A DNA stretch of 64,000 nucleotides from contig JAHHHO010000009.1 in NCBI GenBank assembly GCA_019359315.1, forward strand, positions 1 through 64,000, written 5' to 3'. This stretch comes from Myxacorys californica WJT36-NPBG1. GTDB taxonomy: Bacteria > Cyanobacteriota > Cyanobacteriia > Leptolyngbyales > Leptolyngbyaceae. How positions within the stretch are numbered: position 1 is the first letter of the stretch; the number at the start of each line of letters is the position of its first letter. Position numbers and translations under genes: made by a program. Below are positions 953 through 39,455 of the stretch, one piece after another. The notes beneath the pieces are model-generated. The model was given only the letters and a program-made list of their open reading frames with translations. It was not told the DNA's origin and did no database searches.

Positions 953-954
953 GA

Positions 955-2352: not shown

Positions 2353-2474
2353 TGATGCTCCAAAACGCTCGGCTTAGTTCACTCGACAAGCAGGACTCCG
2401 CATCTATTATGCCTGCGGAACGGATATGTCTGCTGCGAAGAAAATGTGTGATTTGGAGCGAGGGCAGAGAAAGT

Positions 2475-3577: not shown

Positions 3578-3587
3578 TCCACTCTAA

Positions 3588-4019: not shown

Positions 4020-4637
4020 CTCTTTTTTCTGAGTAAAGAATGCTCTCACCGTAACGACGGACAAACTCACTGTTCACCGTGAATGTAAGGAAATTTTAGC
4101 GATCGTTGGTAGTGCAAAGGCAGGGTCAACCGTGAATTCCCAAAGTATTTTTCAGCCCCACGGGACGTTTGGGGCAAAAGTCGCGAGGTTTGAGCCAAAC
4201 GGAGCTTGATCCATAGATGACCTCCAGGGGTTTAACAAAAAGGTCGCGACTTAATCAATCAACCTAGCTCCGTTGATAGATTAGCTCCAGAGGTTTGAGA
4301 AAAAGGTCGCGACAATCATGATGGATCTAGCTCCGTTGATAGATAACCTCCAGAGGTTTAACAAAAAGGTCGCGACCTTATCTATAAATGAAAAGCGGTT
4401 TGAGAAAAGGTAAGGCGTCTCTTTTGGTTTTTTGGGTGGGAGCGATCGTAGTTCCATCTCTGCATTAGTCCAATCACTTCAATAAGAATCTGAGTTTGCA
4501 AGAAACGGACTTTTCTTAGGAGAAAACACTCAGCATTAGCTCCTGCATCTCCAGTCGAAGGATATTATGCAGAAGTGGTGTCGGGATAAGTACCTCAAAA
4601 TAGGGTCTTAGGCAGAAATTTTCAGTCTAAATAGTAG
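4020..4637. other. Non-coding left flank of the cassette island
   Basis: 618 bp without a credible gene. It contains the 63-bp tandem repeat array (about 4188-4376). To its right is AT-rich sequence that leads into the first cassette boundary at 4637/4638. No integron integrase or attI could be recognised here. Confidence 0.6.
4188..4376. repeat. 63-bp tandem repeat, three copies plus degenerate flanks
   Basis: Three copies end with the same block aaaaaggtcgcgac at 4250, 4313 and 4376, an exact 63-bp period. Each copy carries a variant of ctccgttgatagat, then ctccagaggttt, then the palindromic core GTCGCGAC. Degenerate partial units occur before (about 4175-4187) and after (about 4396-4415). 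Stops occur in the frames I checked, so it appears non-coding. It could be a protein-binding array or a slippage product. Confidence 0.85.
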
Positions 4638-4733
4638 TTAGCTTGTTTATGTCATAGGTGGTGAGGGTAGTTTAGAGATATCTGTTGATGTTGAATGTTT
4701 TCAATTCTTCAACTGGTATGTGAGAAACAAGGC

Positions 4734-5429
4734 ATGGACACAAAGAGGCTATTGGAACTATACGGTTCTGGAGAACGCGATTTTCACGGTATCGCTATAG
4801 ATAAGGCAGATTTGAGTGGGCAGATTTTAAAGAAAGCAATTCTTGATCGAGCTAAGCTATATTTTGCTGATATGGCGGGTGTGAATTTAAGAGCTGCAAG
4901 TCTCAAAGTGGCTAGTCTGAATTATGCAAATTTAAGCAATGCCAATTTGCGAGGAGCAAATCTACAAGGGGCAGATTTGAGAAGAGCGAATTTAAGTGGA
5001 GCTAACTTCAAGGGAGCCGACTTGCGAAGAACATATTTAGGACAAGCTAATTTGAGAGGAGCAAATCTAGAAAACGCAAATTTGAGTGAAGCTGATATTT
5101 GGGATGTTGACCTCACTGGTGCAAACCTGTTTGAAACAAAACTGAAGAAAGTCCATTTCAGAAATGCTTGTCTTTTCCAAGGCGCTAACGTTGAAAAAGC
5201 AAGGTTGGGAGAAGCTTGGGGGCTTTCAGAGGCGGAGAAGCAGGATTTAATTGCACGAGGAGCTATCATCGAGTCTTTAAAGGTGACAATACTTTCGGAT
5301 GCCGAAATTATCAAGATGTGGCTCAGTGAACAACGTATAGATGCGATTAGAGAATATCGACGCTCACACAATGTAGGCTTGCACGAAGCATTTGATACTT
5401 TACAGAAGCTTGCAACAAATCATCAATAA
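4734..5429 (+). CDS. Pentapeptide-repeat protein (first integron-type cassette)
   Basis: 231 residues from the ATG at 4734 (MDTKRLLELYGSGERDF). This is the usual opening of cyanobacterial pentapeptide proteins, so an upstream ATG at 4695 is rejected. Residues about 20-155 are A(D/N)LXX repeats (ANLSNANLRGANLQGADLRR) that should fold as a right-handed quadrilateral beta-helix. About 75 non-repeat residues end the protein (IIKMWLSEQRIDAIREYRRS). Pentapeptide proteins include DNA-gyrase-protecting mimics, but no specific target can be read here. The gene is visibly more AT-rich than its neighbours and lies between the cassette boundary at 4637/4638 and the attC-like site at 5457-5543, so it is probably an acquired cassette. 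Confidence 0.88.
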   Translation: MDTKRLLELYGSGERDFHGIAIDKADLSGQILKKAILDRAKLYFADMAGVNLRAASLKVASLNYANLSNANLRGANLQGADLRRANLSGANFKGADLRRTYLGQANLRGANLENANLSEADIWDVDLTGANLFETKLKKVHFRNACLFQGANVEKARLGEAWGLSEAEKQDLIARGAIIESLKVTILSDAEIIKMWLSEQRIDAIREYRRSHNVGLHEAFDTLQKLATNHQ

Positions 5430-5456
5430 AGTAGAGTGTGCTGGTGTGGCGACACA

Positions 5457-5543
5457 AGCTAACAATCTCAATGCACTGGAACAATGTCAATTGATCGGTA
5501 AGTTGCAAAGGTTATCTGTGTCCGGTGATTGCGAACGTTAGGC
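5457..5543 (+). repeat. attC-like integron recombination site 1
   Basis: R'' AGCTAAC (5457-5463) and R' GTTAGGC (5537-5543) flank inner arms caatGcactgga and tccggtgattg. The arms pair with a single unpaired G in the left arm, the extrahelical base typical of attC. Five-base unpaired spacers separate the R and L boxes on both sides. Predicted cleavage is between G5537 and T5538. The reverse complement of R'' is GTTAGCT, exactly the sequence at the proposed left end of this cassette (4637-4643), as the cassette rule requires. Confidence 0.75.
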
Positions 5544-5634
5544 AGCTTCTCGTTCTATGTAGGGACAGTAATCAGAAGGTTGCCTGTAGAGTGACTTCAG
5601 TCCAAAATATACTTAAAATCACTTCTTACTGCCA

Positions 5635-6540
5635 ATGTCAGACAGCCGGATTCATCTCGTTAACAGTCAAACTGGAGATGTCTTTCCGGCTGCTCCTGAT
5701 GGAAGTGTGTTATTTTCCAGCGTGAATGCAGGTTGGCAGGGAATCACGGTTGAATTTCACCGAATTTCATCATTTGAACTACCCGAACACTATATCGATG
5801 GACATCGTTTGGCGGTCAACATTGGTCAACCTGTTCACTACGAATGGAAAGAGGGCAGGCATTGGCGACAAACGACTTTGAATCCAGGTGATTTTTGCTT
5901 ACAGACACACGGCGATATCAACTTTCCTCGATGGTGGGGAAACTTTGAATTTTTGGCGATCGCCCTTGACTCTCAATTTGTTCGCCAAGCGTTTCAAGAT
6001 ACGGGTGCCTCAGAAAACATTGGTTTTCTAACCCGTCGAGGTGAAGCTGATACAACAATTGCTGATTTTACTCATCGCTTTAAAGCAGAATTAGCTTCTG
6101 GAAGCTACTGTGGCACGCTTTACGGTGAATCGCTTGCGGTCGCCTTTGCCCTTCATCTGATTGAGCATCACAGCAGCTGCCCTCAAAAACTGCGTAAAGC
6201 TTCTGGAAAGCTTTCGTCACAGCAGCTAAAGCAGATTATTGAATACGTTCATGAACATCTAAGCGAGGAGTTGAGTCTCGTTGACTTAGCCAAACAAATG
6301 AACCTGAGCGCATTTCACTTTGCGCGTCTGTTCAAAAATTCGTTGGGACTTTCCCCACATCAATATCTATTGCAAAACCGAGTCGAGCGTGCCAAGAAGC
6401 TGATTGCGATTGCGGGTAAACCCGATTTAACCGATATTGGGTTGCAGGTAGGCTTCTACGACCAAGCGCATTTTACCAAAGCCTTTAAGCGAGTCGTCGG
6501 CATTCCACCTAAAAGCTTCCTCAAGCAGGTCGCAAGCTAA
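5635..6540 (+). CDS. AraC-family transcriptional regulator
   Basis: 301 residues. The N-terminal about 180 residues are a variable sensing domain. The C-terminal about 100 residues carry two helix-turn-helix motifs: LSLVDLAKQMNLSAFHFARLFKNSLGLSPHQYL, then DLTDIGLQVGFYDQAHFTKAFKRVVGIPPKSF. Both parts match the AraC/XylS signature. It sits 70 bp upstream of, and in the same direction as, a Tat-exported short-chain dehydrogenase. Both are enclosed by attC-like sites 1 and 2, so regulator and enzyme appear to travel as one cassette. Regulation of the downstream SDR gene is inferred from this linkage. The effector is unknown. Confidence 0.92.
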   Translation: MSDSRIHLVNSQTGDVFPAAPDGSVLFSSVNAGWQGITVEFHRISSFELPEHYIDGHRLAVNIGQPVHYEWKEGRHWRQTTLNPGDFCLQTHGDINFPRWWGNFEFLAIALDSQFVRQAFQDTGASENIGFLTRRGEADTTIADFTHRFKAELASGSYCGTLYGESLAVAFALHLIEHHSSCPQKLRKASGKLSSQQLKQIIEYVHEHLSEELSLVDLAKQMNLSAFHFARLFKNSLGLSPHQYLLQNRVERAKKLIAIAGKPDLTDIGLQVGFYDQAHFTKAFKRVVGIPPKSFLKQVAS

Positions 6541-6610
6541 GCAAGATTTTACAATTTTTCGACACGGCTGTTTCGATAAGCTGTTCTCAGAGTTTAGGAG
6601 AAGCGAACTA

Positions 6611-7603
6611 ATGAAGAAGCTAAATCGTTCACGTCGTGGATTAATCAAAGGTGCTGCCTTGGCTGCAACTGGAATGACACTAGGAGCAGGACTATCCCCT
6701 TTACGAACCCAACAAGCAACAGCACAGGCTCCCGCTCAGCCTGATGCACAGCCTCAGCCCTCCAGCACACTTCCTTTGTCTGGAAAGGTCGCATTCGTTA
6801 CTGGAGCGGCACGAGGGATTGGACGGGCAATTTCAGAAGTTTTCGCAATGAATGGTGCCGATGTTGCCATGTTGGATATTGCCGAGCCTTCTCGTTTGAA
6901 CTCTTCACAGGGTTATCGTGTTGCCAACAGAGATGAGTTCAATGCAGCCGTTGCTTCTGTCAAGCAATACGGCACAAAGGTTCTGCTAATTCAGGTGGAT
7001 GTTCGCGATCTAGCAGCAATGCAATCTGCGGCAGAACGCACGAACCGCGAATTGGGTGGCATTGATATTGTCGTTGCCAATGCAGGTTATGTGGCATGGC
7101 ACAGCTTTGAGGATGGCACCCCTCAACTCTGGCACGATGTATTCGATGTCAATGTTCACGGGGTTTTCAATACAGCAAAAGCTGCCATTCCGTTTCTCAA
7201 GCAGCGGGGTGGTGGACGCATCATCAATATGGCATCTGTGGGGGGCAGGGCTGGATTTGCTGGAAACGGTGCTTATACATCGACGAAGTGGGCTGTGATT
7301 GGGATGACTAAGCAAGCCGCTCAAGAGTTGGGGCAATACAACATCACAGTGAACGCGATCGCGCCAGGTGCAGTCAACACGGCAATGTATCGTAGCGAGG
7401 GACAGATGCGATCAATGGGTGTTTCCACTCCAGCGCAACAGGACGCGCTAATTAATCCAGTGAGTCCACTGGGCAATGCTGGAGCGATTGAGCCAGAGGA
7501 TATTGCCCAAACAGCACTTTTCCTGGCAAGCAATGCAGCAAAAACAATTTCAGGAACGACGATCGATAATGCACTGGGCTTCAATGCGAGCTATACAGCG
7601 TGA
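6611..7603 (+). CDS. Tat-exported short-chain dehydrogenase/reductase
   Basis: 330 residues. An N-terminal twin-arginine signal (SRRGLIKGAALAATG, RR at 8-9) is followed by a Q/P/A-rich linker to about residue 55. A classical SDR domain comes next: cofactor motif TGAARGIG at 64-71, NAG at 157-159, catalytic S209, Y222 and K226. An insert around residues 93-118 (EPSRLNSSQGYRVANRDEF) resembles the extended SDRs that bind their cofactor tightly, such as those associated with mycofactocin. This would suit an enzyme outside the cytoplasm, because Tat exports folded cofactor-loaded proteins. The substrate is unknown. It follows the AraC regulator within cassette 2. Confidence 0.88.
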   Translation: MKKLNRSRRGLIKGAALAATGMTLGAGLSPLRTQQATAQAPAQPDAQPQPSSTLPLSGKVAFVTGAARGIGRAISEVFAMNGADVAMLDIAEPSRLNSSQGYRVANRDEFNAAVASVKQYGTKVLLIQVDVRDLAAMQSAAERTNRELGGIDIVVANAGYVAWHSFEDGTPQLWHDVFDVNVHGVFNTAKAAIPFLKQRGGGRIINMASVGGRAGFAGNGAYTSTKWAVIGMTKQAAQELGQYNITVNAIAPGAVNTAMYRSEGQMRSMGVSTPAQQDALINPVSPLGNAGAIEPEDIAQTALFLASNAAKTISGTTIDNALGFNASYTA

Positions 7604-7908
7604 GCCTCGTTTCTTGGATGTCGAGTATATTTAGTAGCTACTGCCTAACAATTGCGTTGCAGCGGCGGACGAAAGATTTTGGTCTAAATCTAAATATAGA
7701 AGCTACTACCTCCGCTGAACGCAGCCGTTATGCCGCAAGTTCTTGGTAGGGTGAGCAGCAAAAGCATACTTGTGAGCGTTCAATGCTCCTGTAGCTGGCG
7801 TTCAAGTTCATCGCAAATTGCTAGGTCTATCAGAACAGTCTTTGAAGTTCCTTGGTCTTAATTAAGGTGGGTTCAAACGAAGAATAATCCGTAGCATGAA
7901 GGCTTTGT
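7604..7908. other. Cassette junction spacer
   Basis: 305 bp between the dehydrogenase and the DUF6883 gene. It holds attC-like site 2 (7643-7733) and the 5' region of cassette 3. No other gene is seen. Confidence 0.6.
7643..7733 (+). repeat. attC-like integron recombination site 2
   Basis: R'' GCCTAAC (7643-7649) and R' GTTATGC (7727-7733). The inner arms cgttGcagcgg and ccgctgaacg are complementary apart from one extra G in the left arm, at the same position as in sites 1 and 3. Predicted cleavage follows G7727. The reverse complement of R'' is GTTAGGC, which is exactly the sequence at the start of this cassette (5537-5543). Confidence 0.8.
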
Positions 7909-8241
7909 ATGCCGATTCCGAATGCAGAGAATGCAGTTGTTGACATTCGTAAACTACGCGACTACTGCCTTAATCTGGAACACGATGACGGCAAGCACAA
8001 AGCTCGGCTATTCTTCTCGATTCTTGGGATGACGGCTGATAATGCTGAGGAATTACGTCAAATTCTCCTTGAGGTCGCCAAAGTTCAGGAAGCCCAGTTG
8101 GGAAAACGGGATAAGTTTGGACAACGGTACACCCTAGACTTCATAATCGAATGGCAAAATAGAAGCGCAACCCTTCGGAGTGGCTGGATCATTGAGCATG
8201 GCTCAGAGTTTCCAAAATTAACGACCTGTTATCCTCTGTAA
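7909..8241 (+). CDS. DUF6883-type protein
   Basis: 110 residues beginning MPIPNAENAVVDIRKLRDYCLN and containing HKARLFFSILGMTADNAEELRQILLEVA. This pattern (IPNA, then a KL-DYLL-like helix, HKARVF, and a helix ending in an acidic L-rich stretch) matches the family I know as DUF6883. The biochemical function is not established. It is followed 18 bases later by a DUF4926 gene, and the two form cassette 3 between attC-like sites 2 and 3. Small paired genes in cassettes are often toxin-antitoxin or immunity pairs. That role is inference only. Confidence 0.75.
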   Translation: MPIPNAENAVVDIRKLRDYCLNLEHDDGKHKARLFFSILGMTADNAEELRQILLEVAKVQEAQLGKRDKFGQRYTLDFIIEWQNRSATLRSGWIIEHGSEFPKLTTCYPL

Positions 8242-8259
8242 TCAACAGAGGTAATAAGC

Positions 8260-8508
8260 ATGATGAATAATACAGTTAAGTTGCTAGATGTTGTTGCCCT
8301 GATCGTTGACCTTCCTCAATACAATTTGTGGTGTGGACAGGTTGGAACGGTCGTTGAGACACTAGCGGAAGGTGCCGCATTTGAAGTTGAATTCAGCGAT
8401 CGTAATGGACGTACTTATGAGTCTTTAGGATTGCGTCCAGAGCAAATCATAGTTCTACACTTTGAGCCAATATCGCCTAATGAAAAAACTGACATGATAA
8501 CAGCGTAA
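8260..8508 (+). CDS. DUF4926-type small protein
   Basis: 82 residues with an SH3-like beta-barrel pattern: VKLLDVVALIVDLPQYNLWCGQVGTVVETLAEGAAFEVEFSDRNGRTYESLGLRPEQI. This matches the DUF4926 family. The ribosome-binding sequence agaggt precedes tandem ATG codons at 8260 and 8263, and the first is used here. It is translated from the same short mRNA as the DUF6883 gene and is the second gene of cassette 3. It may be a partner or antidote of the DUF6883 protein, but nothing in the sequence proves this. Confidence 0.75.
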   Translation: MMNNTVKLLDVVALIVDLPQYNLWCGQVGTVVETLAEGAAFEVEFSDRNGRTYESLGLRPEQIIVLHFEPISPNEKTDMITA

Positions 8509-8511
8509 GCA

Positions 8512-8598
8512 GCACAACAATCCAAATGCAGCAGACTAACGAAAACTTCTGGTGCTGAGTTCAAGGTTATCTGCCGTCGCTGATTTGCGCCGTTGTCT
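8512..8598 (+). repeat. attC-like integron recombination site 3
   Basis: R'' GCACAAC (8512-8518) and R' GTTGTCT (8592-8598). The inner arms aaatGcagc and gctgattt are complementary with one extra G in the left arm, as in the other two sites. Predicted cleavage follows G8592. The reverse complement of R'' (GTTGTGC) differs from the cassette start (GTTATGC) by one base. Confidence 0.7.
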
Positions 8599-8730
8599 TG
8601 CCTACGTTACAGGTAGTGGCAGTAGTTTGAAAATTATCTATCAGAATTCAAATTTAAGTTGCGTTTAGAAGTGTTAGTAAGGCAACGATTTGAAGGGTAT
8701 GGTTTCTTGTTCGGGAACAGGAACAACCCG

Positions 8731-8805
8731 GTTCGGGAGAGCCGAACTACAAAAATTGACTTACCCGTTAATGTGAAATTAAATCATCAATTGATGATTT
8801 TAATT
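8731..8805 (+). promoter_or_regulatory. Promoter region of the small heat-shock gene with two inverted repeats
   Basis: A sigma70-like promoter is visible: TTGACT (8756-8761), a 17-bp spacer, then TTAAAT (8779-8784). Upstream is an inverted repeat GTTCGG (8731-8736) / CCGAAC (8742-8747). Overlapping the -10 and predicted start is a longer palindrome at 8777-8805 with core AAATCATCAATTGATGATTT. The second repeat is placed like a repressor operator, or it could fold as a 5' UTR hairpin. It is not a CIRCE element. Confidence 0.5.
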
Positions 8806-8839
8806 GAACAAAACAACGATGACTTCAGAGGTGAATTGT

Positions 8840-9277
8840 ATGGCTCTCATTCAATGGCAACCTTTCCAAGAAATCGAAAGCTTACAACGCGACATGAACC
8901 GTTTATTCGATCGCTTAGTTACCACGGATGGAGAAAGCAATCGTCCCGCCTTCATCCCCGCAGCAGAAATTGAGGAAACGTCTGATGCAATTCAGTTAAG
9001 CCTGGAAGTTCCAGGAATGGATGCAAAGGATATTGATGTACAAGTTTCCGCTGAAGCAGTTTCGATTAGCGGCGATCGCAAAGAAGAAACTAAGACTGAA
9101 GAGAAAGGAATGACCCGCACAGAATTTCACTACGGTCGATTCCAGCGTGTAATTCCTCTACCCACCCGCATCGAGAATACAAACGTCAAAGCTGATTACA
9201 AGGACGGCATTTTGAAACTCACACTTCCCAAAGCTGAGGAAGAGAAAAACAAAATCGTCAAGGTAAACCTCAGCTAG
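8840..9277 (+). CDS. Small heat-shock protein (Hsp20/alpha-crystallin)
   Basis: 145 residues from the ATG at 8840 (MALIQWQPFQEIESLQRDMNRLFDRL). A good ribosome-binding site, agagg, lies eight bases upstream. The more upstream in-frame ATGs lack one. The N-terminal arm ends near residue 40. The alpha-crystallin domain spans about 43-135 (FIPAAEIEETSDAIQLSLEVPGM ... YGRFQRVIPLP), and the C-terminal anchor motif is present in degenerate form (NKIVKV). It is an ATP-independent holdase that also stabilises thylakoid membranes in cyanobacteria. It lies just outside the last attC-like site and is followed by a strong terminator. Confidence 0.95.
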   Translation: MALIQWQPFQEIESLQRDMNRLFDRLVTTDGESNRPAFIPAAEIEETSDAIQLSLEVPGMDAKDIDVQVSAEAVSISGDRKEETKTEEKGMTRTEFHYGRFQRVIPLPTRIENTNVKADYKDGILKLTLPKAEEEKNKIVKVNLS

Positions 9278-9286
9278 TTCTCACAA

Positions 9287-9321
9287 ATGCTTAGTCCTGG
9301 CTAATAGTCAGGACTAAGCAT
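9287..9321 (+). terminator. Terminator of the small heat-shock gene
   Basis: Perfect 13-bp stem (atgcttagtcctg and its reverse complement) with a 9-base loop, followed by a T-rich run (atttttta). Confidence 0.85.
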
Positions 9322-9379
9322 TCATCATTTTTTACTCCTAACAACTTGCCTAGCTGAAGCACATAAAAATTGATTGAAA

Positions 9380-9829
9380 ATGGATTGGAGTTCTTGGTTC
9401 ACTAAGGATACAATTGTTCGCAATCTAGAAGGATTTCAAAACTTTATTGTTGTTTCACTTTGTATTGGCTTATTTTGCGCGATGCTGATTCGGCTGGGTG
9501 AGATGTATGTCTCTCTTCTGAACCCTCTGAACTTCAAGCTCATTACATCGGATATTTTATTTATTCTGATTTTGGTTGAATTGTTCCGGCTGTTGATTGT
9601 TTACCTCAAAGAGCAGCGCATTTCAGCCGGAACCGCTGTAGAGGTTTCCCTTGTCTCAGCATTGCGTGAGGTTATTTTACAAGGTGTGCTAGAAATTCCA
9701 CTCGGTCAATTGCTGGGTATATGCGCGTTCCTCAGCGTTCTGGGCGGGTTATTGCTTCTACGAGTTTGGATGTTCCAGCGCTTGAATTCCCTAGATTCAA
9801 TTGACCTCCACGAATCTAGCAGGATGTGA
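9380..9829 (+). CDS. PsiE-family (phosphate-starvation-inducible type) membrane protein
   Basis: 149 residues from the ATG at 9380. An in-frame TTG six bases earlier is less likely. Four hydrophobic segments are visible, at about 18-40, 55-75, 95-112 and 115-132. The diagnostic PsiE-family stretch is SDILFILILVELFRLLIVYL, followed by SALREVILQG. The protein is in the plasma membrane and its activity is unknown. The name comes from the E. coli gene and does not itself prove phosphate control. It is monocistronic, with an imperfect stem-loop (9868-9909) downstream. Confidence 0.85.
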   Translation: MDWSSWFTKDTIVRNLEGFQNFIVVSLCIGLFCAMLIRLGEMYVSLLNPLNFKLITSDILFILILVELFRLLIVYLKEQRISAGTAVEVSLVSALREVILQGVLEIPLGQLLGICAFLSVLGGLLLLRVWMFQRLNSLDSIDLHESSRM

Positions 9830-10185
9830 AAGGTTGTAGTTCAAGAAGCCAGCAATGAGATGATCAATTGACCCTTTTGCTGACCCTACAACATCAGCAA
9901 CAGGGTCAATGTAGCGGAGCAGAAGAGTGAGAACCTTCTCATCGTTCAAGTTCTTATCGTTCAAGCTCTCTCATCGCCGCTCAACTGTGTCGTTAAGCCG
10001 CTTCGTTTTTGTTGGTGGGACAGAGTTGAGAAGCGAAAAGAGTGAATTCCGCGATCGCTTCAACCCTGCCAAACCCAGTTTCCTTCGAGTAATCGCTTCT
10101 ACCCAACCCGTCCCAGCGATCGCGCAATGTTTAACTGACTCATCCTTTCCTGCTATCCTCATAATTGCTCTCCACTCAGACTGTC
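9830..10185. other. Spacer upstream of fabI
   Basis: 356 bp. Apart from the stem-loop at 9868-9909 it has no feature I can support. Open frames here lack ribosome-binding sites and resemble no family. Confidence 0.5.
9868..9909. terminator. Imperfect stem-loop after the PsiE-family gene
   Basis: TTGACCC (9868-9874) pairs with GGGTCAA (9903-9909). GCTGA and TCAGC pair inside. There is no T-run, so it is a possible 3' structure rather than a clear terminator. Confidence 0.4.
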
Positions 10186-10983
10186 ATGCTAGACCTGACC
10201 GGAAAAAATGCCCTCGTCACCGGAATTGCAAACAATCGCTCGATCGCGTGGGGGATTGCCCAACAGTTGCACAAAGCAGGGGCAAATCTTGGCATTACCT
10301 ATTTGCCCGATGAGAAAGGCAAAATGGAAAAAAAGGTCGCAGAACTTGTAGAACCGCTCCAACCAAGCCTATTTCTGCCGCTCAACGTACAAGATGAAGC
10401 GCAAGTGCAGTCAACCTTCAAGACGGTAGGCGATAAATGGGGCAAGTTAGATATCTTGATTCACTGTCTTGCGTTTGCCAGTCGAGACGATTTGACAGGC
10501 GACTTTAGCGGCACAAGTCGCGCCGGATTCACAACAGCATTAGATATCAGCGCCTATTCCTTGATTCAAATGGCAGGCGCAGCGAAATCGTTGATGACAG
10601 ACGGCGGCAGCATTGTCACGCTCACGTATTTAGGCGGCGTCAAAGTCATTCCAAACTACAACGTAATGGGAATTGCAAAAGCGGCGTTGGAGATGAATGT
10701 CCGTTATCTCGCATCTGAGCTAGGTCCAAACAATATTCGCGTGAACGCCATCTCAGCCGGCCCGATTCGGACATTGGCATCATCAGCGGTGGGTGGCATT
10801 CTAGACATGATTCATCACGTCGAAGCCGTTGCACCGTTGCGCCGGACTGTGACCCAAACCGAAGTTGGAAATACGGCGGCATTCCTCTGTAGCGACCTAT
10901 CGAGCGGCATTACCGGACAAGTTGTGTACGTCGATGCTGGATACGAAATTATGGGGATGAGCGGAGCGAAAGCGGACGCATAA
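10186..10983 (+). CDS. fabI: Enoyl-[acyl-carrier-protein] reductase (NADH) FabI
   Basis: 265 residues from the ATG at 10186 (MLDLTGKNALVTGIANNRSIAWGIA). Upstream in-frame codons extend into non-conserved sequence. It catalyses the last reduction of each fatty-acid elongation cycle, trans-2-enoyl-ACP to acyl-ACP. Evidence: the FabI-type cofactor motif GIANNRSIAWG, the internal HCLAFA segment, and the catalytic Tyr-x6-Lys pair in YNVMGIAK. SAGPIRTLASSAVG forms the substrate lid. Its length agrees with the family. It is cytosolic, and it is the sole gene of its transcription unit here. Confidence 0.97.
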   Translation: MLDLTGKNALVTGIANNRSIAWGIAQQLHKAGANLGITYLPDEKGKMEKKVAELVEPLQPSLFLPLNVQDEAQVQSTFKTVGDKWGKLDILIHCLAFASRDDLTGDFSGTSRAGFTTALDISAYSLIQMAGAAKSLMTDGGSIVTLTYLGGVKVIPNYNVMGIAKAALEMNVRYLASELGPNNIRVNAISAGPIRTLASSAVGGILDMIHHVEAVAPLRRTVTQTEVGNTAAFLCSDLSSGITGQVVYVDAGYEIMGMSGAKADA

Positions 10984-11286
10984 TATCTCCTCAAACTGTC
11001 CGGTCTCCTAGCTGTGATCCTAGCACTTGACTAAAATCGCGTTAATTTCGAGGGATGACCGTGGCATTGAGAAAAAGTGCGATCGGCGCAGAGCATCGCT
11101 CTACAGCAATCGCTAACATTCTCAAGTTTCGTGTTTCAATCCCAATTTGTTGCTGGGACAACTTCGCCCAGCAACTGTGATACGCCTGCGTCAAGGGAAG
11201 AAGCGTCAAGGTGTGAATCATTGGGGCGATCTTGCTCTGATTTGCACCCCTTCGTTGCCGACTTCAATTTAGACTCGCATCCCAAT
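10984..11286. other. Spacer between convergent fabI and the diguanylate cyclase gene
   Basis: Holds an 8-bp perfect stem-loop at 11150-11174 (ttgctggg and its reverse complement, 9-base loop), a possible bidirectional end. Nothing else was recognised. Confidence 0.5.
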
Positions 11287-12888
11287 CTACACACATCTCA
11301 CACAGTTCCGTCCATCCGCTTTCGCCAGATATAGGGCGTGATCAACCACTTGCACGAGAGACTCCCTGGTTCCACCATTGTCGGGGAATAAGCCTACGCC
11401 CAGCGAAAGTGTAGTGCAGATTGTTGCAGATCCAAACTTCATCCGCATCGCTTGAAAGGATAGCCGAATCTGTTCAGCACGCTGGTAAGCGTCCTTCATC
11501 GCCACTGTAGGCAGGGCCAATACAAATTCTTCACCGCCATAGCGACACGCGATATCACCCTGTTGACTGTGATGGCGAAGCAACTTGCCAAACTCTTGTA
11601 GGACAAGATCGCCACCCTGATGCCCATAGGTATCATTGATTTGCTTGAAAAAATCAATGTCCATCAGGATAACAGCGACGCTGTAAGATTCCCGAGCGGC
11701 TCGTGTCAACTCTTGAGAGAGCATCTCCTCAAAATAACGTCGATTAAATAAGCCCGTAAGCCCATCGCGGATTGCCTGTTCACGCAGCTGAGTTTGCAAT
11801 TTTTGGATCTCGCGTAGTTGTTCTTGCAACCGTTCGTTGACCTGCCGCAGATCGAATTCGCTTTGGTGCTGTTGGGTAACATCACGCAAGACAAGCAGCC
11901 GCCCAGTTGACCGTTTACGGCGATCGCGTAAGGGTGTAATTCGTAACTCCACATAGCAAGACGCGACCGCGTCAATCCACAACTCTGTCTTCACTACTTC
12001 AGGCGCATAGAGAAGCTGAACGATATCTTGCCATCTTGAGAATACCTGCCTGAGCGGTTGACCAATGCAGCGTGCTGTTGTCCCAATGAGGCGCTGTGCT
12101 GCTGGATTAATGTCAACAATGCGATTTTGCAAATCTAGAACGAGAACACCATCAGACATGCTCTCGATCAAGGTGTCTCGTGCCACAGGCACAAGGTCAA
12201 ACAGGCGAAAGCGAAAGAGCGTCACAAAATAAATGGTTCCTGCTAGCAAAAAACTCATGGGGGTGATGTTCAAACCAGGAGGCGTAAGATCTAGCATATA
12301 TAAAGTAGCTCCTAGCATCGGGACGATCGCCCCTGCCAACACCATGCTAGACTGCTGCCGATGGAGAAGCGACGGACGCAGAGCCGCGTTAACGAGTAGC
12401 AGTGAACCTGCGAGTGTATAAACGTAAACGCATGTCATCACCCAGTAGAACCCTAGACCGTGCTGGTAAATAACTTGGTTGGTGCTATGGGAGCAGGGCA
12501 AAACTCCGATCCAAACTAACCGATGCTGTTCATTGGTTCCAACTAACCCCACATTAAAAATGGGAAGTATGCACAGCAATACGATGTTTTTGGAGGTTAA
12601 CCACTGCCTTCGGTGCGTGAAATGTATAGCAAAGATCAGGAAAAGCGTAATTACACTACCAGAGGCAACGTACTCTAACTTCGACCAAAAGATTTTGTGA
12701 GGTAGGGCGATTGCAGCAGCCTCTAGGGCAGCAACAATGGCATAGCTAGCAATGGACAGCATCAACAGAATGAACGGTATACTGGCAGAACATGCGGTAC
12801 GCCTTCGCCAAGCTAAGATCGCAACCGCAGCAGCGATCAACGCCGTGAGGATGAGGATGGCAAAATAGGGATTATTCTGAAAAAGCAT
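11287..12888 (-). CDS. 7TM-PAS-GGDEF diguanylate cyclase
   Basis: 533 residues. Seven hydrophobic segments occupy about 8-228, the histidine-kinase N-terminal 7TM type of sensor. A PAS domain follows at about 235-340 (ESMSDGVLVLDLQNRIVDINPAA), then a short coiled coil (346-372) and a GGDEF domain (about 373-533). Active-site GGEEF is at 451-455 with the metal-binding DIDFFK at 410-415, so it should make cyclic di-GMP. The inhibitory RxxD site expected just upstream reads QQGD (442-445), so product inhibition at that site is probably lost. It is membrane-bound and the signal is unknown. Confidence 0.93.
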   Translation of the reverse strand: MLFQNNPYFAILILTALIAAAVAILAWRRRTACSASIPFILLMLSIASYAIVAALEAAAIALPHKIFWSKLEYVASGSVITLFLIFAIHFTHRRQWLTSKNIVLLCILPIFNVGLVGTNEQHRLVWIGVLPCSHSTNQVIYQHGLGFYWVMTCVYVYTLAGSLLLVNAALRPSLLHRQQSSMVLAGAIVPMLGATLYMLDLTPPGLNITPMSFLLAGTIYFVTLFRFRLFDLVPVARDTLIESMSDGVLVLDLQNRIVDINPAAQRLIGTTARCIGQPLRQVFSRWQDIVQLLYAPEVVKTELWIDAVASCYVELRITPLRDRRKRSTGRLLVLRDVTQQHQSEFDLRQVNERLQEQLREIQKLQTQLREQAIRDGLTGLFNRRYFEEMLSQELTRAARESYSVAVILMDIDFFKQINDTYGHQGGDLVLQEFGKLLRHHSQQGDIACRYGGEEFVLALPTVAMKDAYQRAEQIRLSFQAMRMKFGSATICTTLSLGVGLFPDNGGTRESLVQVVDHALYLAKADGRNCVRCV

Positions 12889-33033: not shown

Positions 33034-33939
33034 CTATCGGCTGCTAGTTGGTCTGGTGACAGGAATGTTAGGTAAGTAAACCGTTTCGCCATTCAATAGA
33101 GCATACACGCTCTTGTTGGGATAAGCTTTCTTGTTCCATTGCAAGTTCGCGATCGCTTGCTCCCGATTCCAATTTGGCTCAAACCCGACGCGCATTCCAC
33201 CCCAAAATAACTCGTAGCCAACTTTCTGACCGTTGAGAATTCCCTCAACTCGTTTGTTGGGATAAGCTTTTTTGTTCTGTTGCAGGTTTGCGATCGCTTG
33301 CTCCCGGCTCCAGCTTGGCTCAAATCCAACTCTCACGCCATCCCAAAACAATTCATAGCCAATCTTTTGACCGTCAAAATAGCCTTCGACTTTTCGATTA
33401 GGATATGTTTTCTTCGCTAACTCTAAATGAGTGACTGAATCTTGGCGCGACCAATTCGGCGATCTTGCAACTAGCTCACCATCCAAATAATACTCATATC
33501 CCTTCGCACCCAGATGGCGATCGTCTGACAACATGGTGCGATTTGGAAAATTCAACGTAATCGCTTCTCTTTGGCAATTGCCTGCATTACAAACTTGAGC
33601 AACCCCCTGTAATTGTGGCGGTCTTGAGAAAGGAGTAACACATCCTTCTACCCGAAGATGACCCTTGGCAGTGTCCATTGCACCAAACACCGGACAGCCA
33701 CCTTCGACCGGAAGGACAACTTTTTGACTGGTGAGTGACCCTGACTGAGTGTAAAGAGAATAGTCACTCGTATTTGCCTCAACACAGACATTGATGCCCA
33801 TTGCAGGAACGCATTGAACGAAGTTAGAGTCTGCGTGTGCAGCCCGTGCTCCTACAAGTGTAAACATAGGAATGCTAATGTTTAAGAGTGCGAAAACTGC
33901 TAGAGATTTCCGAGATTTGAAGAATTGAATTGCAGACAT
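33034..33939 (-). CDS. Secreted protein with three ~47-residue repeats (promoter-module gene 1)
   Basis: 301 residues with a signal peptide (about 10-37, cleaved near AAHADS). Residues about 40-135 are a Cys-containing domain. Three imperfect repeats follow: each begins GYExxxDGxxVxxxPxWSR, continues QAIANLQxNKKAYPNKxVEG and ends with a GQK step. I recognise no family; repeat units two and three are nearly identical also in DNA, a sign of recent duplication. aaggag precedes the ATG. It is the first of three neighbouring leftward genes that share an 81-bp promoter module (34028-34108 here). Ligand binding outside the cell is inference. Confidence 0.75.
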   Translation of the reverse strand: MSAIQFFKSRKSLAVFALLNISIPMFTLVGARAAHADSNFVQCVPAMGINVCVEANTSDYSLYTQSGSLTSQKVVLPVEGGCPVFGAMDTAKGHLRVEGCVTPFSRPPQLQGVAQVCNAGNCQREAITLNFPNRTMLSDDRHLGAKGYEYYLDGELVARSPNWSRQDSVTHLELAKKTYPNRKVEGYFDGQKIGYELFWDGVRVGFEPSWSREQAIANLQQNKKAYPNKRVEGILNGQKVGYELFWGGMRVGFEPNWNREQAIANLQWNKKAYPNKSVYALLNGETVYLPNIPVTRPTSSR

Positions 33940-34027: not shown

Positions 34028-34108
34028 TCTCAGAACACTTTCAATTTACTGGCTTATCTGATGCGGGTCGATAACTATAAATTAAGGAAAGTTAAGGAGC
34101 GCGTTAGG
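34028..34108 (-). promoter_or_regulatory. Shared promoter module A
   Basis: Minus strand, in order: CCTAAC, six bases, CTTAACTT-TC-CTTAATTT (34079-34096), 30 bases, -10 element TAAATT (34043-34048), then GTGTTCTGAGA (34028-34038) at the predicted start. The same elements recur with identical spacing upstream of the next two genes. The direct repeats resemble those bound by PhoB/OmpR-type response regulators. Confidence 0.75.
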
Positions 34109-34174
34109 TAAGTTTGCTAGAAAAATTAGGATGAATTAGCAAGTTTTGAACGACCATTAGGTTCAGAATTAATG

Positions 34175-34200
34175 AAAAAAGCCCCTACCGGAGTAGGAGC
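34175..34200 (-). terminator. Terminator of the gene at 34266
   Basis: On the minus strand gctcctac, four-base loop, gtaggggc (one mismatch), then six Ts. It is nearly identical to the terminator at 35024-35049. Confidence 0.85.
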
Positions 34201-34265
34201 GATCGCAAGTTTTAGTAAGCAAAAACAGCATTAATGTGATTGCATGTCTTCTTAGAGGAAATCTA

Positions 34266-34805
34266 TTAATCGAGAAAATCTAGTAGCCCAGGTTTGCCTT
34301 TACGCTCTACTGGGCAAATATAGGTACTCAGAAGCCTATGGTCATAGCTCCAGGAGTTCACTAAATAGGGAGGATTTTGCGAACCGTACTTTTGGCTGGG
34401 GTTGAAGTTTTTATTTTTCTCGACTGTCCAATAGCCTCCAGCTTGAAGTTTCGCTTCTATGCTGCTACCTCCGATTGCACTGTACTTCTCGACACCACAA
34501 TCTACCGACTCCGCGTAATTGAATCTTGGTTTAATAACCACGCGAATTGAAGCAACATCTAGCATGCGATCGCGCTTCTTACTAGGATTGCAATCTTTGG
34601 TCTGCCAATTGCAGCAGCCATTATCGCCAGCCTTAATGGTTTTAGACATCCCCTTCCATTCTGCTTGTTGAAAGTAGATTTGCTTATCAGTTGCATTATA
34701 GATACAGAATGCATCAGCACGATTTGCGGTTGCTCCAATTCCAAACATTCCGAACAGTGTAGTGATAGCAGAAACAGACAAAATAGACACGATCGCAGCT
34801 TTCAT
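34266..34805 (-). CDS. Secreted Cys-containing hypothetical protein (promoter-module gene 2)
   Basis: 179 residues with a signal peptide (about 3-32, cleaved near ADAF). The mature part has six cysteines (FCIYNATDK, GCCNWQTKDC, VDCGVEK, YICPVERK), enough for disulfides. The pattern CIYNATDKQIYFQQAEWKGMSKTIKAGDNGCCNW suggests a small beta-sandwich of the kind seen in secreted cyanobacterial and fungal-like proteins, but I recognise no named family. The ribosome-binding sequence is aggaatgag. Promoter module B lies 73-153 bases upstream. The transcript ends at the hairpin 34175-34200. Confidence 0.7.
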   Translation of the reverse strand: MKAAIVSILSVSAITTLFGMFGIGATANRADAFCIYNATDKQIYFQQAEWKGMSKTIKAGDNGCCNWQTKDCNPSKKRDRMLDVASIRVVIKPRFNYAESVDCGVEKYSAIGGSSIEAKLQAGGYWTVEKNKNFNPSQKYGSQNPPYLVNSWSYDHRLLSTYICPVERKGKPGLLDFLD

Positions 34806-34877
34806 GATTAGCTCATTCCTATTTAGATGACAAGATTTTGATTGGATGTCCTGTTAATTTGGCTCAGTCATTTCGTT

Positions 34878-34958
34878 TCTCAGAACACTATTAATGTATT
34901 AGTTTTTCTGCAATGCCACCATAACTATAAGTTGAGAAAAGTTATGGAGCTTGTTAAG
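34878..34958 (-). promoter_or_regulatory. Shared promoter module B
   Basis: Minus strand: CTTAAC, six bases, CATAACTT-TT-CTCAACTT (34929-34946), 30 bases, -10 TACATT (34893-34898), then GTGTTCTGAGA (34878-34888). The layout is the same as module A, base for base in spacing. Confidence 0.75.
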
Positions 34959-35023
34959 ATAAGCTCGCTATAAGAGTTAAGGTGAATCGTAAACTTTATC
35001 AATCAAACTGATAGCAACACAGC

Positions 35024-35049
35024 AAAAAAGCTCCTACCGGAGTAGGAGC
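35024..35049 (-). terminator. Terminator of the peptidoglycan-binding gene
   Basis: On the minus strand a perfect 8-bp stem gctcctac/gtaggagc with a four-base loop, followed by six Ts. Confidence 0.9.
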
Positions 35050-35092
35050 GATCGTGAATTCTTCAGCTTTATAAAACAAGAATTTGAGCTAT

Positions 35093-35503
35093 TTAATGCG
35101 TGACCCCTTGCGGTTTTGACACTGCCAATAGCTTTTGGCGAACTGGAAGCACTGCAAAGCCATCGGGAACAAATCCATAACGTCGTTGAAACTCCTTAAT
35201 AGCTGAGATCGTACGGGGTCCATAAAACGGCTGATTTTTTGGTAGGTTAGCTCCCACGACTTGGTTCAGTTCTGCCTGAAGTACTCGCATTTGTCGCTCT
35301 GCCATCGCCATCGTTTTTGCACCCGCAATACCGTCTACTTGAAGATTGAAATATTTTTGAAAGTCTTCGATCGCATCACGGGTAACTCGATCAATCAGTG
35401 GGTTGTTGTCAGTTGATATGGGATCGGTCAGTTCACCTTCTGGAACGTAGCCAAACCCTAAACCGTTAAGAATGCTGCGGAATTGTGCGTTAGTGTAAGC
35501 CAT
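35093..35503 (-). CDS. Peptidoglycan-binding (PG_binding_1) domain protein (promoter-module gene 3)
   Basis: 136 residues without a signal peptide. Two segments follow the PG_binding_1 pattern: residues about 5-65 (FRSILNGLGFG ... VTRDAIEDFQKYFNLQVDGIAGAKTMAMAE) and about 85-130 (FYGPRTISAIKEFQRRYGFVPDGFAVLPVRQKL). Such domains bind cell-wall glycan or peptide. Absence of a signal peptide is odd for a wall-binding protein and may mean alternative export. aaggag precedes the ATG. Promoter module C is 205-285 bases upstream. Confidence 0.85.
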   Translation of the reverse strand: MAYTNAQFRSILNGLGFGYVPEGELTDPISTDNNPLIDRVTRDAIEDFQKYFNLQVDGIAGAKTMAMAERQMRVLQAELNQVVGANLPKNQPFYGPRTISAIKEFQRRYGFVPDGFAVLPVRQKLLAVSKPQGVTH

Positions 35504-35822
35504 AATTGATGCTCCTTGTGAGTAATAAGTGTGAGTCAGTCAGAGTGAGTCAGTCAGATGGATGAGCAGCACGACAACACAAAGCTGAGGACGATTTGCC
35601 CTTGTTATTGAGCATTAATGGATGTATCAAAATGCTCTTTATTAAGTGTTGTCGAAAGCTTTCAGTGTGGAGTCGGGTTTAGTTGACTGGGTTTGAAACC
35701 CTGTCTTTTTCAGGACACTATCACTCTATTGCGGATCTCAAGGAGCGTCGATGAGGATAAGTTGAGGAAAGTTATGGAGGTTTTTAAGGTCGCATTGAAT
35801 GGATGGAAGTTATGGAATTCAT
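35504..35822. other. Leader of promoter-module gene 3
   Basis: 319 bp with a long probable 5' UTR (about 210 bases) and promoter module C. It contains a gtgagtcagtcag repeat near 35540 (agtcagtcagagtgagtcagtcag). No gene is seen. Confidence 0.65.
35708..35788 (-). promoter_or_regulatory. Shared promoter module C
   Basis: Minus strand: CTTAAA, six bases, CATAACTT-TC-CTCAACTT (35759-35776), 30 bases, -10 TAGAGT (35723-35728), then GTGTCCTGAAA (35708-35718). The spacing is identical to modules A and B, and the start-site motif has two substitutions. Confidence 0.72.
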
Positions 35823-38800
35823 TTAGGATTCGATCGCGCCCATGCCGACCAGGGCAGACTTCTGAGCAATCGTAATCCCCGTAACACGAGTGATATTTGT
35901 TCCGGTATAAGGCTTAGTTGGAGCTAAGGTTTTTAAGCAGTGACCCGTTTGAGTATCCCAAATCGTGATCGTTCCACTCTGGCTACCACTGGCAATTGCC
36001 GCACAATTTGGGTCAGGATGAAACGCGATCGCAGTCCGTACCGTTTGCGTCAACATGGGCAACGTTTTTAGACACGCTCCTGTCTCCATCTGCCAAAGCT
36101 TTATGGTTTGATCTAAGCTACCACTGGCAAGGGTTTCACCATCGGGACTAAAGGCAACCGACCAAACGCTATTCTGATGCTCCTCCAGAATATTAAGGCA
36201 CTGTCCTGTTGTGGTTGACCAGAGCCGCACAGTTTCATCACCACTTCCACTGACTAACACTTCACCATCCTGATGAAAGGCAATCGATTGAACCCGTCCG
36301 GTATGTCCTTGTAAGGTATGAAGACAGGCTCCAGTCTGCATTGACCAAAGCCGAATGGTTTGATCCTCGCTACTGCTAGCGAGCAGCGTTCCATCGGGAC
36401 TAAATGCCACTGCCCACACCCAACTCGTATGACCCTGCAACGTTTGAAGACACACTCCTGTATCGACTGCCCAGATGCGGATAGTCTGATCATCACTACC
36501 ACTGGCGAGAAATTGACCATCGGGACTAAAGACTACCGATTGAACCCAGTTTACATGTCCTTCAAGTAATCGACACTGCCCTGTTGTAAGATCCCATAGT
36601 CGAATCGTGCGATCGACACTCCCACTCGCAAGTAACTGTCCATTTGGATGAAACGCAACGGACGTAACCCAGCTGCGATGTCCTTGAAACGTGTTCAAGC
36701 ACGTCCCTGTAGAGGTGTCCCAAAGCCTTACGGTTTGGTCAGTACTGCCACTCACAAGCTGTTGCCCATCTGCTTTAAACGCAATCGAAAAAATAGAGTT
36801 TGTATAGCCGCTCAGGGTTTTTAGACATTGGCTCGTAGGTAAATTCCAAAGCTTTACCGATTGATCGGTGCTGCCCGAGGCTAGAGTTTTGCCGTCTCGA
36901 TTAAGGGAGAGTGAAAAAATAGCGTTTGTGTGTCCTCGCAAGCTGCTCAGACAGTCTCCTGTGGCTAAATCCCAGACTCGGATGGTGCGATCGTCGCTGG
37001 CGCTAATGAGACGGTTAGAGGCAGGATCAAATGCAATTGAACGAACGCGATCGCGATGCCCCTGCAAGGTTTTCGAACACGCTCCAGTTTTACAGTTCCA
37101 GAGATTGATGGTGTGATCGGCGCTGCCACTGGCGATAGTCGTGTCATCCAAAAAGGCAATTGACCAGATGCGATCGCGATGTCCTTCGCAGATCTGCTGG
37201 CAATCTTTGGTGTGCATCGACCAGAGGCGCAGGCTGCGATCGTCACTTCCACTCGCTAACGTCTGACCATCACGGCTAAAGGCAACAGAAAGTACCCGTC
37301 CGGTATGTCCTGGTAGAAGTTGAGAGTTACCCGTGCTGATATCCCAAAGCCTGACGGTTGACTCATCGCCACCGCTTGCTAATGTCTTGCCGTCGCTACA
37401 AAACGCGACTGACCACACAGAACCCGTATGCCCTTCTAGAACGCTTAGGCAGTGACCCGTGTGCAGATCCCATAAGCGAATGGTTTTATCGCTACTACAG
37501 CTTGCTAACGTTTGACCGTCCGGGCTGAATGCGATCGCCCAAATCCACCCGACATGACCGCTACAGTTCAACAACAGCGTCCCGTTTGCAACATCCCACA
37601 ACCGCAATCCACCTTCTGCATCTCCGGTCGCCAGCAGCGCTCCGTCTGGGCTAAAGGCAACACTAAAGATAATGCCTAATGTGTCAGTAAAAATAGAGTG
37701 AGATAAATCGGAATCCGAAAGATCAACATCATGAAGTTCTACATTTTTTAGATAAGCCTGCCAAATTTTTAGATTAGAACAGTCTAAATTCTCTAAACGG
37801 GAAGTCAATTGACAGAGTAAATTCAAAAGGTTTCCACCCGCATATCCGGTTTCAAGCGATGATTTTCCTTGTAGCGTTTTCAAGCTCTGGGTAAAAAGCG
37901 TTTTAAGATCAATTTGACCTGCCAGATCTGCCTCTAACCGCCTGAGGATGGGAGCCAGAATCAAGCGAATTTGGGTATCTCGAATGTAGTCCTTTGCCTG
38001 CGACGTTAGCAAAGCGTGGCGTTTCACAAGACAAGCTTGCGAAGCAAGACCGGATTTGAGTTCTTGACACACGTGATCGATCAAGCGATCGCTGACATAC
38101 TCCAACATGAGCGGCAACAGTGAGAATCGAGCGGCGGTTCGCTCGACGAGCGATCGCTGCTCCAACAGTTGGAGAATTTCCATCAATGCTTGAGGCACAA
38201 TCGGCGGGAAAATGTCCGATCGCAAGTCTGAAAACGTTGCCGACTCTCGATAGATCGCCAACCAATACATCACCGTTTTTTCAGCCTCCGATAGCCGCTC
38301 AAACTGCTGTTCAATCAGCGATCGGATGGTACCGAAGACAAAGGTATCTTGCTGTAGAAAATCAGAAATGCTGCCATCAAATAAATTCTGAATTGTGGTC
38401 GCAATTATTTTTAAGGCTAAAGGATTGCCAGAATAGCCCTCAATCAATCGGTTCCACTCCTTGTCTGTCCCTCGAAACGCCCCTTTTAACTGAAGTAACG
38501 CCTGTCCGTCGCGCGGTTGCAACCCGCTGAGATAAAAGCAGCGCACAGGTAACGTTGCGCCTTCTAGAACGCTAATGTCTTGAGGTTTCTCCCGGCTCGT
38601 TAACACTAGAGTGCTTTGATGCAGGGTTTCTCCAATTTGCCGAAAGAGTTCACCATATCCTTCGTATCCACTCAATTCTGAATTGTCGCTGCAATTGTGG
38701 TGAGGGCTAGCAGTCGCTCCCGGATCTGGCAAAACGGTTTCAACGTTGTCGAGAATCAGAAGACAGCGCTGCGATCGCAGTTGGGTCAACAGTTGGGCCA

Positions 38801-39455
38801 ACTGCCGCGACAACTTTCCCGCAACGGGTTCCGCATCAGCAACCTCTACGTCAGATAGAACGTGCAACCAATCCGCTAACAGGTCTACGAGCGGCGGCGC
38901 ATTGCGGAGCGATCGCCAGATCACCCGCTCAAACTGCGGCTGCAATTGCTGCGCCAACTTCATCGTCAGCGATGTTTTTCCCATTCCACCCATGCTCAGT
39001 ATCGCGACCAATCGACACCGCTCATCGAGAATCCACTGCTGGAGTTGACTTAATTCTGCCTCACGCCCATAGAAAAAACTGATATCAATTTGTTCTCCCC
39101 AATCTTGACGGGAAGAGCGCTGGATGGGTTGAATCGGCACTTCAACCAGACCTAGAGCTTGAGCCGGCTCTTGAAGCGTTGCCGCCGCTTGAAAGCGCCG
39201 TTCGATCGCGGCTCGAAAGCTCGTTTTGTTAACTTTCTCATCCAAAACAGAAGATAAAAGCCGCCATAGTTTAGGACCAATATCATGCTTCAAATAGGTC
39301 GGCGAATAACCGTAGGTATCCGCGATTTTGTCATAGCTTTGCCGTTGCCAAGACCACGACTCGCGCAGCATCGCTTGCTGAAGATCGCTTAAATGCGTCC
39401 CTACTTTCGCAAACACTAGCTGGTCGGTAAAGGCAAGAGCTTGTTCAAGATCCAT
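35823..39455 (-). CDS. STAND NTPase: HTH-like N-terminus, NB-ARC, 14 WD40 repeats
   Basis: 1,210 residues. The N-terminal about 95 residues form the helix-turn-helix-like module common in cyanobacterial STAND proteins (YDKIADTYGYSPTYLKHDIGPKLW). An NB-ARC ATPase follows (about 130-450) with Walker A SMGGMGKTSL and Walker B CLLILDNVE. Then a winged-helix and linker region, and from about residue 605 fourteen WD40 repeats ending GH and W/D (SPDGxxLASGSxDxTIRLWD), i.e. two seven-bladed propellers. STAND proteins oligomerise on ligand recognition by the propeller and serve signalling or defence. No fused effector enzyme is visible, so it is probably regulatory. It is downstream of promoter module C's gene but in its own unit. 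Confidence 0.93.
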   Translation of the reverse strand: MDLEQALAFTDQLVFAKVGTHLSDLQQAMLRESWSWQRQSYDKIADTYGYSPTYLKHDIGPKLWRLLSSVLDEKVNKTSFRAAIERRFQAAATLQEPAQALGLVEVPIQPIQRSSRQDWGEQIDISFFYGREAELSQLQQWILDERCRLVAILSMGGMGKTSLTMKLAQQLQPQFERVIWRSLRNAPPLVDLLADWLHVLSDVEVADAEPVAGKLSRQLAQLLTQLRSQRCLLILDNVETVLPDPGATASPHHNCSDNSELSGYEGYGELFRQIGETLHQSTLVLTSREKPQDISVLEGATLPVRCFYLSGLQPRDGQALLQLKGAFRGTDKEWNRLIEGYSGNPLALKIIATTIQNLFDGSISDFLQQDTFVFGTIRSLIEQQFERLSEAEKTVMYWLAIYRESATFSDLRSDIFPPIVPQALMEILQLLEQRSLVERTAARFSLLPLMLEYVSDRLIDHVCQELKSGLASQACLVKRHALLTSQAKDYIRDTQIRLILAPILRRLEADLAGQIDLKTLFTQSLKTLQGKSSLETGYAGGNLLNLLCQLTSRLENLDCSNLKIWQAYLKNVELHDVDLSDSDLSHSIFTDTLGIIFSVAFSPDGALLATGDAEGGLRLWDVANGTLLLNCSGHVGWIWAIAFSPDGQTLASCSSDKTIRLWDLHTGHCLSVLEGHTGSVWSVAFCSDGKTLASGGDESTVRLWDISTGNSQLLPGHTGRVLSVAFSRDGQTLASGSDDRSLRLWSMHTKDCQQICEGHRDRIWSIAFLDDTTIASGSADHTINLWNCKTGACSKTLQGHRDRVRSIAFDPASNRLISASDDRTIRVWDLATGDCLSSLRGHTNAIFSLSLNRDGKTLASGSTDQSVKLWNLPTSQCLKTLSGYTNSIFSIAFKADGQQLVSGSTDQTVRLWDTSTGTCLNTFQGHRSWVTSVAFHPNGQLLASGSVDRTIRLWDLTTGQCRLLEGHVNWVQSVVFSPDGQFLASGSDDQTIRIWAVDTGVCLQTLQGHTSWVWAVAFSPDGTLLASSSEDQTIRLWSMQTGACLHTLQGHTGRVQSIAFHQDGEVLVSGSGDETVRLWSTTTGQCLNILEEHQNSVWSVAFSPDGETLASGSLDQTIKLWQMETGACLKTLPMLTQTVRTAIAFHPDPNCAAIASGSQSGTITIWDTQTGHCLKTLAPTKPYTGTNITRVTGITIAQKSALVGMGAIES

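Follow-up and report, generated by a model that had tools for sequence, protein, structure and literature searches.

Why should three neighbouring genes for unlike proteins be preceded by what looks like one and the same promoter? The genes lie on the minus strand of the window, the stretch of 64,000 nucleotides of Myxacorys californica WJT36-NPBG1 DNA (contig JAHHHO010000009.1) that was analysed as a whole, and the original prediction placed before each of them an 81-bp module with identical internal spacing. All three modules were found at the positions and with the spacing claimed (Table 1), and they share the layout CYTAAM, 6 nt, CWTAACTT, 2 nt, CTYAAYTT, 30 nt, TAnnnT, 4 nt, GTGTYCTGA. 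Alignment of the sites divides the 30-nt gap into 7 nt, a -35-like hexamer similar to TCGACC and a 17-nt spacer preceding TAnnnT; the hexamer is an element that the prediction did not contain, and because the gap resolves in this manner the module can be taken for a sigma70-type promoter. Direct repeats of the form CnTAACTT-2-CnTAACTT are located just upstream of the -35 position, a third half-site lies 12 bases further up, and the start region is conserved. With a predicted start 7 nt past the -10 element, arithmetic puts repeats B and C between about -60 and -43 and the beginning of half-site A at about -72. A plain consensus scan for sigma70 promoters did not report the module promoters. 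Below, G000 denotes the window's own genome (5.97 Mb), and the other G, L and C labels denote compared genomes, loci and contigs.

Table 1. Modules, genes and terminator-like sites of the window, and the further module sites of the same genome
Feature	Position	Strand	Description
Module 1	34028..34108	-	whole module
Module 1 half-site A	34103-34108	-	CCTAAC
Module 1 repeat B	34089-34096	-	CTTAACTT
Module 1 repeat C	34079-34086	-	CTTAATTT
Module 1 -35-like	34066-34071	-	TCGACC
Module 1 -10	34043-34048	-	TAAATT
Module 1 start region	34030-34038	-	GTGTTCTGA
Gene of module 1	33034..33939	-	301 aa, signal-peptide-like, repeats YPNKRVEG..GYELFW..
Module 2	34878..34958	-	whole module
Module 2 half-site A	34953-34958	-	CTTAAC
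Module 2 repeat B	34939-34946	-	CATAACTT
Module 2 repeat C	34929-34936	-	CTCAACTT
Module 2 -35 position	34916-34921	-	TGGTGG (poor)
Module 2 -10	34893-34898	-	TACATT
Module 2 start region	34880-34888	-	GTGTTCTGA
Gene of module 2	34266..34805	-	179 aa, signal-peptide-like, Cys-containing
Intrinsic-terminator-like site after module 2 gene	34175..34204	-	GCTCCTACTCCGGTAGGGGC-TTTTTT
Module 3	35708..35788	-	whole module
Module 3 half-site A	35783-35788	-	CTTAAA
Module 3 repeat B	35769-35776	-	CATAACTT
Module 3 repeat C	35759-35766	-	CTCAACTT
Module 3 -35-like	35746-35751	-	TCGACG
Module 3 -10	35723-35728	-	TAGAGT
Module 3 start region	35710-35718	-	GTGTCCTGA
Gene of module 3	35093..35503	-	136-aa peptidoglycan-binding protein, PF01471, E 2.9e-18
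Intrinsic-terminator-like site after module 3 gene	35024..35053	-	29/30 bases as at 34175-34204
C125 site			before paralog of peptidoglycan-binding gene
C78 site			before peptidoglycan-binding gene with signal peptide
C64 site			before paralog of the window's repeat protein

As predicted, the likeness concerns the promoters and not the products, the module standing upstream of differing types of protein. Neither the repeat protein behind module 1 nor the product of the module 2 gene matched a Pfam family above the cut-off or an NCBIfam model at E 0.01; by a crude rule, the peptidoglycan-binding protein behind module 3 lacks a signal peptide. Two of the transcripts were also said to end in near-identical terminators, and the two sites differ in 1 base of 30; their pattern matches twice in the window, against 0 expected, with no third place within 3 mismatches. 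The protein encoded at 35823-39455 has 1210 aa, 14 WD40 stretches and, from a reading of its sequence, an NTPase-like part; it ends 35 nt from module 3, on the upstream side.

The motif also recurs beyond chance elsewhere in the genome. Scanned with the repeat part only, at up to 3 mismatches and with the reversed pattern as control, the genome holds 9 places against 4 for the control; the mismatches number 0-1 in six of them and exactly 3 in the other three. The six good sites are the three window modules and three further copies, on contigs C125, C78 and C64. TAnnnT follows in all six, at 30 nt in five and at 31 nt in C125, a placement that was not imposed, as the -10 element was absent from the search pattern. 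A profile of the three window modules and the C125 site (R1) finds the C78 and C64 sites at E 3.5e-8 and 2.4e-7 and nothing better than E 0.6 beyond them; its matches on C113 and C51 (E 0.6 and 0.9) were treated as chance. The small envelope regulon of the original prediction is supported by the six sites and by an exported or envelope theme.

Of the 42 genomes of the family, three have matches at E <=0.01, namely the window's own with six sites, G029 with three promoters found by R1, each with the -10 element at 30 nt, and G025 with one weak site (L028; E 0.003 and 0.0015) that has no TAnnnT at 30 nt. The hexamer stands 17 nt before TAnnnT in eight of the nine first sites and 18 nt before it in C125. 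A profile search gave no match in G001, a genome of the same genus. In a sample of the class, with 11 candidates scored per genome, at least 19 of 388 genomes match at E 0.001; the best E is 4.4e-15 or lower in 11 of these, and 8 are weak (E 2e-6 to 7.5e-4). A degenerate pattern allowing a gap of 20 or 21 nt was then run over 84,980 species genomes and matched 50 places, against about 1 expected by chance as estimated from the information content of the pattern at equal base frequencies. By record title, 47 of the 50 are cyanobacterial, in 23 genomes besides the window's own (Nostoc, Anabaena, Rhizonema, Scytonema, Elainella, Pegethrix, Leptolyngbya, Moorena, Symploca and other bins), and every one of the 47 has the 20-nt gap, the pattern having left 21 nt open as well. 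The three others come from Runella, Poseidoniales and Streptomycetaceae, two of them with the 21-nt gap.

A gap-free alignment of 38 non-redundant sites, 30 from the species scan and 8 from the window's own genome and G029, shows conservation in columns that the pattern had left free: CTTAA at -14 to -10 (66-82%), TCC at -4 to -2 (84-100%) and an A within the -10 element (84%). The 17-nt spacer is mostly little conserved (0.01-0.52 bits in columns 30-41), its edge columns 29 and 42 reaching 0.63 and 0.81 bits. The start region, GTC/GTGTYCTGA and similar to GTGTTCTGA, is likewise conserved across genomes, with T at 92% in one column; the one explanation that we can offer is that it is possibly a preferred initial sequence. 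A model of the 38 sites gave 60 matches at E 0.01, 1 to 12 per genome, in 14 genomes that had been picked because each holds a site, and 3 of the 60 are weaker than E 1e-4. In model R3, the -10 element was included and the -35 hexamer was not imposed. Among the 30 best of its 33 matches, the three weakest having been dropped and about a dozen of the 30 being the same as sites of the species scan, TAnnnT is in place in 28 and missing in L250 and L251. The hexamer of the R3 sites also reads TTGATG, TTGACG or TTCACG; since these variants are nearer to TTGACA, we take the hexamer to be the -35 element.

Could an alternative sigma factor read the module by itself, with the TAACTT repeats belonging to its promoter? 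We hold this to be very unlikely. The fixed distance to the -10 element and the conserved start region would suit such a factor, but the -35 and -10 hexamers with their 17-nt spacer are sigma70-like, and sigma factors read DNA further downstream than the repeats, which span about -60 to -43. The J-Box of SigJ from Nostoc punctiforme resembles the module as a promoter motif widespread over cyanobacteria and differs from it in being an extended -10 element, GGGaAtacT, described without tandem repeats in the sections of the paper drawn on here (PMC6495340). It is not seen in the modules, and the column frequencies of the 38 sites show no GGG before the -10 element. A second, hormogonium motif is mentioned for clusters 10 and 11 in the same sections (PMC6495340). 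In the searchable text of open-access papers, which does not include the letters of this second motif, no description of the module motif was found.

We consider the modules likely to be activator-dependent sigma70-type promoters of one regulon. The order seen in their sequence is rigid: half-site CTTAAC, 6 nt, CnTAACTT, 2 nt, CnTAACTT, 7 nt, a -35-like hexamer, 17 nt, TAnA(G/T)T and, after it, the conserved start region. The layout suggests an activator of the OmpR/PhoB type. A dimer of such a winged-helix response regulator, perhaps with a third subunit, would sit on repeats B and C (about -60 to -43), and the regulator may bind the half-site near -72 as well. Seated beside a weak -35 element, the regulator would recruit RNA polymerase with a sigma70-type factor, and transcription would start near GTC/GTG, about 7 nt past the -10 element.

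Assignable targets of the modules are mostly exported, being RTX proteins and small proteins with signal peptides; PF00353 was found in all six RTX-looking targets scanned, and seven more look alike by eye. CHRD, DUF928 and cyanovirin-N domains occur among the other products, as do a caspase-nSTAND protein and a PLP enzyme; several module sites have no clear gene downstream. Once RTX targets and sites lacking a clear gene are set aside, and with manually chosen start codons, 19 of 27 targets are signal-peptide-like by the crude rule, against 45 of 207 neighbouring genes (Fisher p 8e-7), a count that does not represent 27 independent cases because several targets are homologous to each other. 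Eight targets fail the rule; the PLP enzyme and the caspase-nSTAND protein are among them, and so are both peptidoglycan-binding proteins that lack a leader. In Rhizonema, caspase-like proteins are encoded 327-426 nt downstream of modules (L061 by Pfam, L095 and L250 by likeness). We read these sites as a real regulon of exported proteins, and a promoter that recurs mostly before exported proteins points to a gene-control circuit for the cell surface. As the products are mostly exported, such a circuit would most likely tune the cell surface or the exoproteome in response to a signal from outside.

The module is also found on mobile DNA. Three DNA queries against plasmids matched one Nostoc plasmid and, over 30 bases, Sinorhizobium, and nothing else; the plasmid, from Nostoc sp. 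C057, carries a complete module before a gene for a hypothetical protein, and a caspase-family gene adjoins this module (locus L284). A single DNA query against phages gave no match, nor did a protein query with the repeat protein against plasmids. In the phage contig formed by C78, which encodes a portal protein, head protease, major head protein and terminase, the module stands among packaging genes before the peptidoglycan-binding gene with a signal peptide. Positions 1-12388 of the viral sequence IMGVR_UViG_3300035019_000006 (L096) are identical to this contig (L210 5582-17969) at 100% over 12,388 bases.

Such copies, together with the clustering of three modules in the window, two of them with near-identical terminators, and the paralogy of two target families of this genome, are what one would expect if the likeness of the modules came from recent copying of one intergenic segment, by duplication or as a mobile promoter element, and not from selection on a regulator site. 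We nevertheless regard copying as very unlikely. Across 23 genomes the 17-nt spacer has mostly diverged while the spaced motif columns are fixed, and a target can exist without the promoter: the repeat protein is present in 5 of 42 family genomes, its closest outside copy (G061:C9, L279) is an ortholog of 62% identity, and the 1.47 kb upstream of that gene contain no module. This ortholog argues that membership lies in the promoter and not in the gene, and the promoter was gained or lost independently of the gene. In the regulon that we propose, membership would therefore be set by the promoter, which would also stand before cargo genes of plasmids and phages.

Which regulator would read these promoters? 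Presence or absence of 13 OmpR-type regulators of the genome was compared in three relatives, and none fully matches the distribution of the module; nine of the 13 have reciprocal best hits (>=70% identity) in two genomes that gave no module match as well as in G029. A hybrid response regulator, L150 (G000:C67), had a partly fitting profile in the three genomes and was followed across the 42 family genomes, where it has close orthologs (66-69%) in G021, G058, G061 and G028, none of which gave a module match; it was rejected. In the 13th regulator, L142 (G000:C53:27002-27214), which falls outside this comparison, a TGA interrupts the frame at the Trp that other regulators show in the VWG motif; it is either a pseudogene or affected by a sequencing error. 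Neighbourhood did not support a candidate: over the 73 module loci, response-regulator domains occur in 13 open frames, at inconsistent positions. Repeat-like sequence was found upstream of two hybrid response-regulator genes, L028, which was selected and has no -10 element in place, and L155, which is weak. In a scan of 83 regulator loci, with L142 in the wrong frame, only L155 came near the background maximum (13.0 against 14.1), that background being drawn from the same loci. Autoregulation of hybrid response regulators is thus a lead only. On C67, the locus L262 (181-16020) contains a lanthipeptide-synthetase-like gene, two exporter-like genes and an HlyD-like gene; after these come a hybrid response regulator and a sensor-kinase-like gene, all of them named from reading the sequences and not from a family search; the G029 locus L263 has counterparts of the last two only.

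Tentatively, we go one step further and suggest a dedicated two-component circuit, mainly in filamentous cyanobacteria, in which the regulator would read CnTAACTT-2-CnTAACTT by a weak -35 element and switch on exported proteins. Its promoter would be portable, so that cargo of phages and plasmids could be plugged into the surface programme of the host, and the regulator may be a hybrid REC-wHTH protein with further signalling domains, some of these proteins having repeat-like upstream sequence. If true, this gives a base-precise promoter definition for a set of exported proteins whose control was not found described, the targets spanning 23 genomes of the species collection; it makes regulon and regulator directly testable and provides a handle on many small exported and RTX proteins of no known function.

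Two known systems of the OmpR family come into question as the identity of the modules. The original prediction likened the tandem 8-mers to sites for PhoB/OmpR-type regulators, of which the OmpR/PhoB-type geometry stands, but a canonical PhoB/SphR site does not. That the modules are Pho boxes, through which SphR (PhoB) activates genes under phosphate limitation, is in our estimate unlikely. In both elements, direct repeats that share a TTAA(C) core stand in tandem, with three half-sites in a row (PMC1906773, PMC11126600); the half-site CTTAAC is near the CTTAACCT-like repeats of the cyanobacterial Pho box, and variants such as TTTAACTT and CTTAATTT occur in the published Pho box table, as far as given in the part of that paper used here (PMC1906773). 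The linker, however, is 2 nt in the module against 3 nt in the same part of that source, where the second half of the repeat also reads CCT instead of the CTT of the module. Periods in the module are 10 bp in the core and 12 bp to the third half-site, not 11/11: averaged over the 38 sites, the next half-site matches best at 10 bp (7.4 of 8; 3.6 at 11 bp) and the upstream half-site at 12 bp (4.1 of 6; 1.8 at 11 bp). One pstS promoter of the window's own genome, L031, has an 11-bp pair, GTTTACCT-3-CTTAACCT, the 11-bp and 12-bp arrangements tying at 16 of 24 in its three-half-site count. At both own pstS loci above the family cut-off (L031 and L032) the module model is unmatched, its best score in 7,851 bases being 3 bits (E 0.75). 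No phosphate gene was found among 20 targets of relatives scanned with Pfam, 8 of which have no family at all, and this too argues against Pho boxes.

There is a very slim chance that RpaB or RpaA, the redox/light or clock regulators, act at the modules, which would then represent a diverged HLR1 element. RpaB is, to our knowledge, near universal in cyanobacteria, whereas the module was found in the few family and class genomes given above. The resemblance is one of layout: HLR1 of RpaB is a pair of direct 8-mers with a 2-nt gap, lying at about -45 to -60, upstream of a sigma70-type promoter, and the HLR1-like element of the atpT promoter shares its 8-2-8 arrangement and its start distance with the module, whose own placement rests on a start predicted from the -10 element (PMC9241938, in the part used here). 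In contrast, the HLR1 half-site is given there as (G/T)TTACA(T/A)(T/A) (PMC9241938) and that of the module, over 38 sites, is CnTAACTT, and the module is further distinguished from HLR1 by an extra half-site 12 bp upstream and by targets that are mostly exported proteins.
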